Below are positions 7,912 through 34,657 of a DNA stretch of 37,417 bases, one piece after another; the first letter of the stretch is position 1, and every line of letters starts with the position of its first letter. A program made the position numbers and the translations under genes. Origin of the DNA: an uncultured Prevotella sp. (GTDB lineage: Bacteria > Bacteroidota > Bacteroidia > Bacteroidales > Bacteroidaceae); contig CAMHEA010000003.1 in the NCBI GenBank assembly GCA_946184025.1, positions 1-37,417 on the forward strand, written 5' to 3'. The notes beneath the pieces were generated by a model. The model had not been told where the DNA came from. It did not search any database and saw only the letters and a program-made list of their open reading frames with translations.

Positions 7912-8219
7912 ACATCTGCGAAATCTGCATAACCAAACTACGAATTAAACGGATTCAACGAATTTCTCCTTTAGGTCATGCAGATTTCACAGATTTTGCA
8001 GATGTCTTTATCATTGCAACTGTTAAAATCTGAGTAGATCTGTGTTATCTGTGAGAGAACCTTGCAGAAGTTACTGACGCTCGACAAAACAAAGAAAAGC
8101 AGACTTTCCTTTGGTTTTGTCCTCGCTAAATCGTAACTTTACAGAAGTTACTGACGCTCGACAGAACAAAGAAAAGCAAGCTTTCCTTTGGTTTTGTCCT
8201 CGCTAAATCGTAACTTTGC
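7912..8219 (+). repeat. intergenic repeat copy B (inverted relative to copy A) with internal 77-bp tandem duplication
   Basis: Reverse complement of 3697-3921; 8065-8141 and 8142-8218 nearly identical. Confidence 0.85.
8187..8218 (+). promoter_or_regulatory. promoter TTTG-N20-TAACTTTG at repeat end
   Basis: TTTG 8187-8190, TAACTTTG 8211-8218, upstream of the 8251 CDS. Confidence 0.6.
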
Positions 8220-8250
8220 AGGGTTGAAACAGCATATAAACAAGACGAAG

Positions 8251-24474: not shown

Positions 24475-24513
24475 GTAAAACAGGGTATATTGCATGGTAA
24501 TATACCCTGCTTT
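24475..24513. terminator. hairpin 1 of twin: (T)AAAaCAGGGTATATT-gcatggt-AATATACCCTGcTTT
   Basis: Direct reading of inverted repeat, convergent intergenic. Confidence 0.8.
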
Positions 24514-24519
24514 ATCGTA

Positions 24520-24558
24520 TAAAAGAGCCTATATTACTTTTCAATATAGGCTCTTTTA
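24520..24558. terminator. hairpin 2 of twin: TAAAAGAGCCTATATT-acttttc-AATATAGGCTCTTTTA
   Basis: Perfect 16-bp inverted repeat. Confidence 0.85.
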
Positions 24559-24697
24559 CTTTTTCAGGAATCTATGGACGCGCGTCTTCAATCCCAATTT
24601 GGTTTGTGAGTTGCCTGCTTTTCGAGGAAGCGTGCTTCCTGATAGGGAGTGAACCTGCATGTCCGACCACAGGCAATAGGGAAAAATCTGCCCACTC

Positions 24698-28893: not shown

Positions 28894-30261
28894 CTATGAT
28901 GATGGTTCTTCTTCGGCCAGCAGGGCGATGGCAGGTGGAATGCCGCCGTTGCCCCGTTGTTTCTTGAACGACGATGCCAGATACTCGTAACCGATGCGGC
29001 AGCGCAGGCAGTCTTTGCGTTCGCAGTAGTTGCGTTTGAGCTGTACGAGTGCCTGCGAGTCTCCGGCGGTCTTCACTTGGAGTCCCGCGCCCCGCCATTC
29101 CCTGACGATGCTGTTGTCTTCGGCTTTCAGTTGTTCCAGAAAGTCAAAGGCACGGTCGCACAACCGTTCGTCCCCTTTGTAGCGGCCGTAGGCGAAGAGC
29201 ATGGGCACGAAGGTGTTGATCATCAGCAAGTGGAGCGAGGCGGCCGACAGGTGTTTCTCGCTGTGCCTGCTCGGAGAGCCGAAGGCATAGTGATCCTGCC
29301 AGTAAGGAGTAGCCTTCGTATGCAGGATGTGCTGTGCCTGTTCCACGGTTGTGCAGTCGATGAGTGCCGAGAGACTGGCTTGGCGGTTGAAGTAGAGGTT
29401 GGCCAGTTGGGCAATGCGGATGTGGGGGAAGTTCTGCGGACGCAGGCGGAGGAAGCGCCACTGGCTGGCATCCATGGGCTGGAGCTTGAACTTATTGGCC
29501 AGAAAGCGGTATTCGGCTTGCAGACGTGTCAGGTAGCCCTCGGCCACGGCGGCATCGCGGTGTTGCCGGGCCACGGCTGTCGGTTCCAGCAGGCCGGCCT
29601 GGCCCAGGAAGAAGGCTTCTATCTGAAAAAGGTCGTCGCGGTGGTGGTCGACGGCATGCAGGGGAATACTGCGTGCCCACGTCTCGAAGGCTTCGCCGTT
29701 GATGCCGAAGCCGTAGTTGCGTGCCAGTGTCACGAAGTAGGCCGCCTCCCAGTCGCCGTTGCAGGCTCTCACGCGGCTGTTGATGGCCTCCGTCTTTTGT
29801 TCCAGCCGTTCTGTCTGCAAGGCATTCATCCATGCGTGGAGCATCAGCGAAGACAGATGGGGGACAATCTGATAGCAAGGCGGATAGTTGTCCACCGCCA
29901 GCAACTCACGGTAGTGCTTCGAAACGGTCTCGGGCACCGCCAGCAGCATTTGCGGCAGTTGCTTGCCGCTTTCAGTCACCACCTCGCTGTCGTCCGTTCC
30001 TGTCACATGCAGAATCACATTGTTGTAGGCTGCGTCTCGGTGGTGACCATGCTGATACCAGTCGCTCGACCGCTCATGGATTTCCACGTTGCCAATCCAT
30101 AGCGTTCCGCCGATGCGGAGCTTCGCGTTGAAGAAGTCGGGGCCGGCATGGTGGTTGTGCAGACCCGTGTCGATGACCTCTACGGGTTCGCCCGCCGTCG
30201 TCTGAAGCTGGCTCAGCGGAAACAGCTTGTGTTTCCATACATAGTGGAGCAGTTGTTCCAT
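28894..30261 (-). CDS. DUF2851-family protein
   Basis: MEQLLHYVWKHKLFPLSQLQTTAGEPVEVIDTGLHNHHAGPDFFNAKLRIGGTLWIGNVEIHERSSDWYQHGHHRD. Confidence 0.85.
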   Translation of the reverse strand: MEQLLHYVWKHKLFPLSQLQTTAGEPVEVIDTGLHNHHAGPDFFNAKLRIGGTLWIGNVEIHERSSDWYQHGHHRDAAYNNVILHVTGTDDSEVVTESGKQLPQMLLAVPETVSKHYRELLAVDNYPPCYQIVPHLSSLMLHAWMNALQTERLEQKTEAINSRVRACNGDWEAAYFVTLARNYGFGINGEAFETWARSIPLHAVDHHRDDLFQIEAFFLGQAGLLEPTAVARQHRDAAVAEGYLTRLQAEYRFLANKFKLQPMDASQWRFLRLRPQNFPHIRIAQLANLYFNRQASLSALIDCTTVEQAQHILHTKATPYWQDHYAFGSPSRHSEKHLSAASLHLLMINTFVPMLFAYGRYKGDERLCDRAFDFLEQLKAEDNSIVREWRGAGLQVKTAGDSQALVQLKRNYCERKDCLRCRIGYEYLASSFKKQRGNGGIPPAIALLAEEEPSS

Positions 30262-30454
30262 GGCATTCGTCCTCTCTCTGTTGTTCTGCTATATATTATA
30301 TATAAGGTACAAAGGTACGCATTCACGGCGACAATGCAAAGAGAATGGCCGTTTTTTCGTAGGAAAAATGTGCTGGAAAACCCTGTTTAGAGCCGTTTGT
30401 AGGCTGCTTGTTAACCTGTTGAGGCTCAGTGATTTACGAAGCGCGTTTCGGTCG

Positions 30455-30481
30455 TGAGAATTTTTAATTTAAAAATTCTCA
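30455..30481. repeat. 27-nt near-perfect palindrome TGAGAATTTTTAA-T-TTAAAAATTCTCA
   Basis: 13-bp arms, 1-nt centre. Confidence 0.8.
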
Positions 30482-30618
30482 AAAAATAAATTATTAATTC
30501 TCAAAAAATAAATTAAAAATTGTCGCGACTGTGGCACTTTCGGAGAACGGCCGTGGTACTTTCGTTTGCTGAGTGTGGCATTTTTGGCGAACGGGTAAGG
30601 CAGTTTGGCGGTGTATTT
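30474..30618. repeat. 22-bp-period degenerate tandem array upstream of dapB
   Basis: AATTCTCAAAAAATAAATTA at 30474 and 30496, AATTGTC at 30518, then GTGGCACTTTCG / GTGGTACTTTCG / GTGGCATTTTTG / AAGGCAGTTTGG at 30531, 30553, 30575, 30597. Confidence 0.7.
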
Positions 30619-30710
30619 TTTGGATAGTTTCACATTATTATATATATGTTTCGTGTGCCGTTCGTTGTTTTTTTCGTACCTTTGCCCCCGCATATAAAAA
30701 GAAATCGCAC

Positions 30711-31466
30711 ATGAAAATAGCATTAATCGGCTACGGCAAGATGGGAAAGATGATTGAACAGATTGCCATTGAGCGTGGCCACGACATCGTCAGCATCATA
30801 GACATCGACAACCAGGGCGACTTCGACAGTGAAGCCTTTGCCTCTGCCGATGTGGCCATTGAGTTTACCAACCCCACGGCGGCCTATGGCAACTACCTGA
30901 AGGCCTTTGCCAAGAACGTGAAGGTGGTCAGCGGCTCTACGGGGTGGATGAAGGAACACGGCGACGAGGTGCGCCGCCTCTGCAACGAAGGTGGGCAGAC
31001 ACTTTTCTGGGCTTCCAACTTCTCCATCGGTGTGGCCATCTTCTCTGCCGTCAACCGCTATCTGGCCAAGATCATGAACCAGTTTCCGCAGTACGACGTA
31101 CGTATGGAAGAGGTTCACCACATCCATAAGCTCGACCATCCGAGCGGCACCGGCATCACCTTGGCCGAAGAAATCGTCAGCGAACTGGACCGCAAGCGTG
31201 AGTGGTGTGTGGGCAGCCTGACCCAGCCGGACGGCACCGTGGTCACGGAGAACCAACCCGCCGACAACCAGCTGGCCATCGACAGCGTGCGTCGGGGCGA
31301 AGTGCCGGGCATCCACAGCATCACCTACAACTCGGAAGCCGACCAGATCACGATTACCCACGATGCACACTCGCGTCAGGGGTTTGCGCTCGGAGCTGTC
31401 CTGGCCGCCGAATACACTGCAGCCCACCAAGGTCTGCTTACGATTTCCGACATGTTTAACTTTTAG
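30711..31466 (+). CDS. dapB: 4-hydroxy-tetrahydrodipicolinate reductase
   Basis: MKIALIGYGKMGKMIEQIA, VVSGSTGWM, EVHHIHKLDHPSGTGITLAEEI. Confidence 0.93.
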   Translation: MKIALIGYGKMGKMIEQIAIERGHDIVSIIDIDNQGDFDSEAFASADVAIEFTNPTAAYGNYLKAFAKNVKVVSGSTGWMKEHGDEVRRLCNEGGQTLFWASNFSIGVAIFSAVNRYLAKIMNQFPQYDVRMEEVHHIHKLDHPSGTGITLAEEIVSELDRKREWCVGSLTQPDGTVVTENQPADNQLAIDSVRRGEVPGIHSITYNSEADQITITHDAHSRQGFALGAVLAAEYTAAHQGLLTISDMFNF

Positions 31467-34303: not shown

Positions 34304-34404
34304 AATACATTACGGCTCTATGGGGCTTCTCCGGCCCTTCCTCAGTGGCCCTTTCTCTTTGCCACGGAGGTACTTTGGAAAAGTAATAAAGCCTTTCTTC
34401 CTAT

Positions 34405-34467
34405 GCAATATACCCTCTTTTACTTGGTAATATGCCCTATGTTGCCAGGTAAAAGAGGGTATATTGC
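34405..34467. terminator. 19-bp perfect inverted repeat between convergent genes
   Basis: GCAATATACCCTCTTTTAC ... GTAAAAGAGGGTATATTGC; right arm differs by 1/19 from 24475-24493. Confidence 0.8.
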
Positions 34468-34657
34468 TTTTGGGGTAAGGCCGGAAAGAGCGGTGAAAGC
34501 GGTTCTTTCCTCATGGAAAACCTCATGGGTGATGTGTGCTTTCTTGTTTCTTGGCAATGGATTACGGCTTAAATGCTATCTTTGTAGATAAGAAAGGAAC
34601 ACAAAGCAAACCCAAACCACAAGAAATGAAAAAGGAGATTGTTTTAACGGCATTGCT

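Follow-up and report, generated by a model that had tools for sequence, protein, structure and literature searches.

A 22-bp-unit array beside dapB in Prevotella is one copy of a dispersed intergenic repeat and an instance of a family-wide 22-bp step

Introduction

REP/BIME elements are palindromic intergenic repeats that are moved by RAYT transposases and reach ~100 or more copies. The iterons of plasmid origins are direct repeats, 22 bp long in some plasmids, that recur every two helical turns and serve as cooperative binding sites for one protein. To our knowledge, the dispersed intergenic repeat families of bacteria are each defined by sequence.

The array examined here lies beside dapB in a 37,417-nucleotide stretch of DNA from an uncultured Prevotella sp. 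(the window). Like REP/BIME elements, it belongs to a set of intergenic, palindromic repeats with ~100 or more copies; however, no Y1 transposase was detected in the draft genome, and what is held in common here is a 22-bp step rather than the sequence of a palindrome. Its direct repeats at two-helical-turn spacing resemble iterons, but iterons are confined to one origin, next to a rep gene, whereas the arrays described below are chromosome-wide and have many unit sequences.

The closest published relatives are PINSR and BrickBuilt, neither of which is described as having a 22-bp comb. PINSR, found in Prevotella (PMC4755523), is present in ~180 intergenic, noncoding copies per genome in a few related species only, and no transposase has been identified for it; the element reported here is similar in its Prevotella host, many intergenic noncoding copies, narrow species range, and lack of an identified transposase. 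The two are set apart by description: PINSR is presented as a repeat of 188 bp that lacks terminal inverted repeats, and no 22-bp periodicity is reported for it (PMC4755523). BrickBuilt, a MITE of Porphyromonas gingivalis (Klein et al., PMC4596501), has 19 copies, a 23-bp unit, and a separate leader and tail, ends in repeats like those of the IS5 family, and shows some target duplications. It is likewise a dispersed intergenic element of Bacteroidales and contains a tandem array with a step of about two turns of the helix, but it has GAGACCTTTGCA-like ends (PMC4596501) and no family-wide period, in contrast to the 22-bp unit and the GTCGYGAGAATTTTTAATTTA ends found here.

Results and Discussion

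Anatomy of the array in the dapB gap

The gap between the divergently oriented dapB and DUF2851 genes is intergenic, spans 449 bp, and holds the 22-bp array (Table 1). The initial annotation described seven units at 22-bp steps in this gap, and every coordinate given for them agrees with the window sequence. The units at 30474 to 30575 stand, with steps of exactly 22 bp in both sets, whereas the fourth right-hand unit, at 30597, is weak. The 27-nt palindrome at which the array was said to begin indeed consists of two 13-nt arms, both perfect, and the −7-like box lies ~60 bp beyond the array end, as claimed. The period also withstands comparison with shuffled sequence: two to three lag-22 windows were observed in the noncoding DNA of the window (that is, DNA without long open frames), compared with none in five within-block shuffles.

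More 22-bp-phased units are present to the left of the array as originally described, reaching back to ~30400. The left flank contains 22-bp units that share their phase with the right-hand units, and between the flanks, the core carries GAG/CTC-like triplets at exact 22-bp spacing, separated by 19-bp blocks of A/T only. Across copies, these core blocks (30459 to 30521 in the window) vary by switches of AA/TT doublets (AAAAAA, AATTAA, AATTTT) and not by single changes.

Table 1. Positions of genes and repeat features in the window
Feature	Position	Strand	Basis or description
DUF2851 gene	28894-30261	-	
dapB	30711-31466	+	DapB_N/DapB_C
Left flank, imperfect palindrome TTGAG-G-CTCAG	30400-30448	+	Center 30424; alignment of 28 copies; profile and arm test, 71 copies
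Left-end inverted repeat GTCGTGAGAATTTTTAATTTA	30451-30471	+	Pair of 21 nt, 90% complementary
Palindrome, 27 nt	30455-30481		Two 13-nt arms
AT-rich core, 69 bp	30456-30524	+	Three 22-bp units; ends form the inverted repeat
Core triplets, GAG/CTC-like	30456, 30478, 30500, 30522		Exact 22-bp spacing
22-bp array, TRF on window	30465-30521		Score 93
Units AATTCTCAAAAAATAAATTA	30474, 30496		Exact 22-bp step
Unit AATTGTC	30518		Exact 22-bp step
Right-end inverted repeat TAAATTAAAAATTGTCGCGAC	30509-30529	+	Partner of 30451-30471; 21 nt, 90% complementary
Right array, 22-bp direct repeats of GTGGCACTTTCGGAGAACGGCC type	30525-30618	+	Divergence grows along array
Units GTGGCACTTTCG / GTGGTACTTTCG / GTGGCATTTTTG	30531 / 30553 / 30575		Exact 22-bp steps
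−7-like box TACCTTTG	30677-30684		
Second 22-bp array, unrelated sequence	24476-24563		Lag-22 scan; TAAAACAGGGTATATTGCATGG / TAATATACCCTGCTTTATCGTA unit pairs, opposite orientation
Third 22-bp array, AATATACCCTCTTTTACTTGGT type	34341-34472		Lag-22 scan; beside diverged GTGGCCCTTTC / GAGGTACTTTGG units
Tandem repeat, 77 bp	8058-8221		TRF; 2.1 copies, 93% matches

A dispersed, species-specific element

The array beside dapB belongs to a noncoding intergenic repeat that is species specific, present in many copies, and built of 22-bp units. In the window's own genome, a 20-base unit of the array occurs 131 times with two or fewer mismatches (reversed control, 0) and the right flank occurs 62 times; clustering of the matches listed for both yields at least 98 loci in the 2.0-Mb draft. 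BLASTN of the region against the same genome returned 19 scored loci with identities of 83 to 100%. A broader core pattern matches 280 times in this genome and not once in 397 other genomes of the genus, and the core has no match in viral contigs. At least 25 contig ends of the draft fall within ~90 bp of an element copy (for example, in contigs C57, C60, C61, C90, C105, and C109), as would be expected of a repeat that breaks assemblies; such arrays help to explain why assemblies are fragmented, with many draft contigs ending inside repeats.

The copies compared below are a sample from among the matches listed. When oriented by their flanks, they share one plan: an imperfect palindrome (center CTGAG-S-CTCAG), the AT core, and then right-hand direct repeats of the GACTGWGGCWCWYTYGGAGAAC type. 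The core is 69 bp long in 66 of the 74 copies, 70 bp in 4, and 47 bp, that is, one unit shorter, in the other 4, and its inner units vary in orientation independently of the flanks. A recurring TACGAATTTCCCAGATTACACGAA-like motif adjoins some copies (the right flanks of L021, L035, and L040).

High copy number, restriction to one species, and intergenic location are also the attributes of a selfish MITE-like or REP-like element mobilized by a transposase in trans, in which the 22-bp repeats would be mere internal structure. The ends of the core, paired in all loci examined as a 21-nt inverted repeat with 90% complementarity, fit this description, and MITEs with internal minisatellites do exist (BrickBuilt, PMC4596501). 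Nevertheless, we regard this explanation as unlikely. The borders are not sharp: to the left and to the right, similarity declines gradually across phased units, and what adjoins the core ends in all copies is conserved array sequence, which differs between the two sides, and not short target duplications. Furthermore, in the stretches sampled from the 68%-complete genome, each end was seen only close to its partner, and neither a solo end nor a longer, autonomous version was encountered, and a search of this genome for the Y1/RAYT transposase (PF01797) found none, whereas control matches were obtained in 5 of 14 genomes. Nor would mobility of one element account for a 22-bp step that is common to unrelated repeats. 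A Y1/RAYT-mobilized or simple IS-derived MITE, in particular, is disfavored by the occurrence of the ends solely as near neighbors in these stretches and by the lack of a Y1 match in the draft genome.

Gene context of the copies and the dapB gap in relatives

The initial annotation, by placing the array upstream of dapB, implied a link to that gene, and an array cooperatively bound by a transcription factor ~60 bp before a −7-like box would be compatible with dapB-specific regulation. The genomic context speaks against such a link. By simple ORF calls, the copies lie in 12 divergent, 29 tandem, and 14 convergent gaps, and relative to tandem genes, 13 have the same and 16 the opposite orientation; thus, they adjoin all kinds of genes in every orientation, with no bias of gene context, orientation, or strand among these copies and no enrichment for convergent genes. 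The comparison upstream of dapB in relatives, proposed at the outset, gave the same answer: the divergent DUF2851/dapB pair is present in 33 relatives, and for 30 of these the gap measures only 82 to 274 bp and contains no 22-bp array. In the remaining three, the gap extends over 668 to 998 bp; two of these gaps hold 22-bp arrays of different sequence, and the third includes masked N and shows no clear array once N is left out. From this comparison, the array emerges as an optional addition to the gap. Although the repeat itself is genuine, it is no dapB element: dapB regulation was rejected as a candidate on synteny and on the surroundings of the copies, and we consider a dapB-specific role extremely improbable. 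The array appears instead to have arrived in a normally short gap and to stand outside the regulation of dapB. Such arrays should, with due caution, not be read as gene-specific regulatory sites.

The same contexts bear on the idea that the palindromes act as hairpins, in a structured RNA, a bidirectional terminator, or a cruciform. Both the palindrome and the core ends are self-complementary, and the RNA fold is somewhat better than that of shuffled sequences (z = −2.8). However, across 71 copies, pairing between the arms of the left palindrome does not surpass that of permuted arms at nearly all positions, and the few central pairs that do surpass it do so by a few per cent; neither the enrichment for convergent genes nor the strand bias that would go with hairpins is present, and no relevant Rfam match was obtained. 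The hairpin explanation is accordingly very unlikely, and we rejected the candidates of a paired hairpin and of a structured RNA on the grounds that the arms lack covariation and Rfam offers no match.

The 22-bp register is held while sequence drifts

In the left flank, 34% of positions are off the consensus, yet the register with the core is exact in 68 of 71 copies. Among the same 71 copies, right-hand units are recognizable at +22 (41 copies), +44 (13 copies), and +66 (5 copies) and at no other offset, and left units of the same type sit at five and six times 22 bp from the first right-hand unit. Together, the left and right offsets indicate that one 22-bp register is held across the region while the sequence drifts.

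Neutral decay is ordinarily expected to bring indels, in a ratio to substitutions that is taken here as a general figure. The proposal that the array is a decayed repeat element is only half right: it is a repeat element, found at no fewer than 98 loci, but plain neutral decay does not fit a 22-bp step that remains exact as the sequence diverges.

A second high-copy family behaves in the same way. This other repeat of 22-bp units (AAAAGACGCCCTTTTGGCTTGC type) has at least 40 scored copies in each of three members of the genus (G162, G364, and G140; L215:18060-18200), with 95 to 198 first-look candidates per genome and none in the window's genome. In 121 aligned copies, ~1,800 differences were counted and a net indel was found in only 3, a number that may be too low because BLAST can end an alignment before opening a gap, although most matches share end points. 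In both high-copy families, then, spacing by whole helical turns is constant despite sequence divergence, as expected of an array that binds protein cooperatively.

A 22-bp comb across the genus and the family

The relative with the closest DapB carries a 22-bp array upstream of dapB that is unrelated in sequence. For this reason, self-match in noncoding DNA was measured at every lag across the genus and beyond, in regions picked by fixed coordinates. For the genus, 35 regions with 75.8 kb of noncoding DNA yielded 43 arrays at lag 22, 34 at lag 44, and 11 at lag 66, whereas other lags averaged 0.7; 80 dapB loci gave 19, 8, and 3 arrays at these lags (0.39 at others). The comb extends to other genera of the family, with 10, 9, and 3 arrays in 20 regions and 0 to 1 at other lags. 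Conversely, no comb is seen in 33 regions from other Bacteroidales families (1, 1, and 2 arrays versus 0.68 elsewhere), and a stretch of E. coli with 3.3 kb of noncoding DNA has no arrays at lags 22, 44, and 66. Independently, TRF, which allows indels, finds no period more often than 22 among the arrays of the genus (36 of 153) or among those of the other genera of the family (26 of 78), versus 4 of 101 in other families.

The unit sequences are unrelated between arrays, both within one genome and across species. As a consequence, the suggested search for the unit at 22-bp spacing (CTTTTRC-N15-CTTTTRC) proved a poor probe for the family as a whole, the unit sequences of different species being too different. 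The dyad symmetry of the unit consensus exceeds that of shuffled units (13.3 versus 11.3 matched positions). The array beside dapB is thus an instance of a family-wide trait, namely, exact 22-bp intergenic steps in a lineage-specific, often dyad-symmetric sequence. What is common to the species is a length, 22 bp, that is held exactly while the sequence turns over. The hosts include some of the most abundant bacteria of the gut and rumen.

A possible protein-binding phase or mutational ruler

Near-identical, presumably young arrays also concentrate at 22 bp and its multiples. Because such arrays already carry the 22-bp unit, the main rival to selection on the spacing is a mutational ruler, by which an enzyme or repair process of the family would make exact 22-bp tandem duplications in any sequence, leaving functionless arrays that are tolerated between genes. 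The occurrence of period 22 in unrelated sequences points the same way, as does the position of the 22-bp arrays in tandem gaps, which is toward the 3′ side, seemingly away from promoters (medians of 104 bp to the upstream stop and 244 bp to the downstream start). A ruler of this kind would leave unexplained the exact step in diverged copies, the excess of dyad symmetry, and the dispersal of multiunit blocks to ~100 or more sites. As a full account it appears rather doubtful, although it could contribute, given the 22-bp unit of the young arrays.

The reading that we favor, and to which we assign an even chance, is that the 22-bp helical phase is under selection and that the arrays form dyad sites on one helix face for an oligomerizing DNA-binding protein, the copy beside dapB being nonregulatory. 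The constrained property would be a spacing of two turns of the DNA helix, neither the sequence nor a base-paired fold. Dyad sites on one face could be presented to an oligomerizing protein, such as one of the nucleoid or an architectural one, with HU-family paralogues as a first guess, and the putative dyad-recognizing binder would probably have an architectural role, not a gene-regulatory one. Spread may proceed by the copying of whole blocks from one intergenic site to others, and length may change by whole 22-bp units. Cooperative binding on one DNA face, as the initial annotation had it, is consistent both with the locked phase and with the surplus dyad symmetry of such arrays; no protein was identified. 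Against a protein-binding reading, unit sequences vary within a genome and between species, for which one sequence-specific protein would not account.

The shared length itself points to a protein or enzyme that acts chromosome-wide. A wider proposal, put forward tentatively and with less confidence than the phase selection above, is that Bacteroidaceae carry a sequence-independent 22-bp ruler, a protein or enzyme that creates and/or maintains exact two-turn intergenic arrays, with each lineage having a high-copy family of its own; this might represent a form of chromosome organization not described in bacteria before. The open-access literature searched contained nothing relevant on 22-bp repeats in Bacteroides or Prevotella or on 22-bp periodicity, and as far as this literature shows, either a protein-binding phase or a mutational ruler would be new.

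Other repeats in the window

The second and third 22-bp arrays of the window (Table 1) have other unit sequences, in part as oppositely oriented unit pairs. Pattern matches occur in the third array at 34345 and 34367, 22 bp apart. The strongest TRF hit of the window is the 77-bp tandem repeat.
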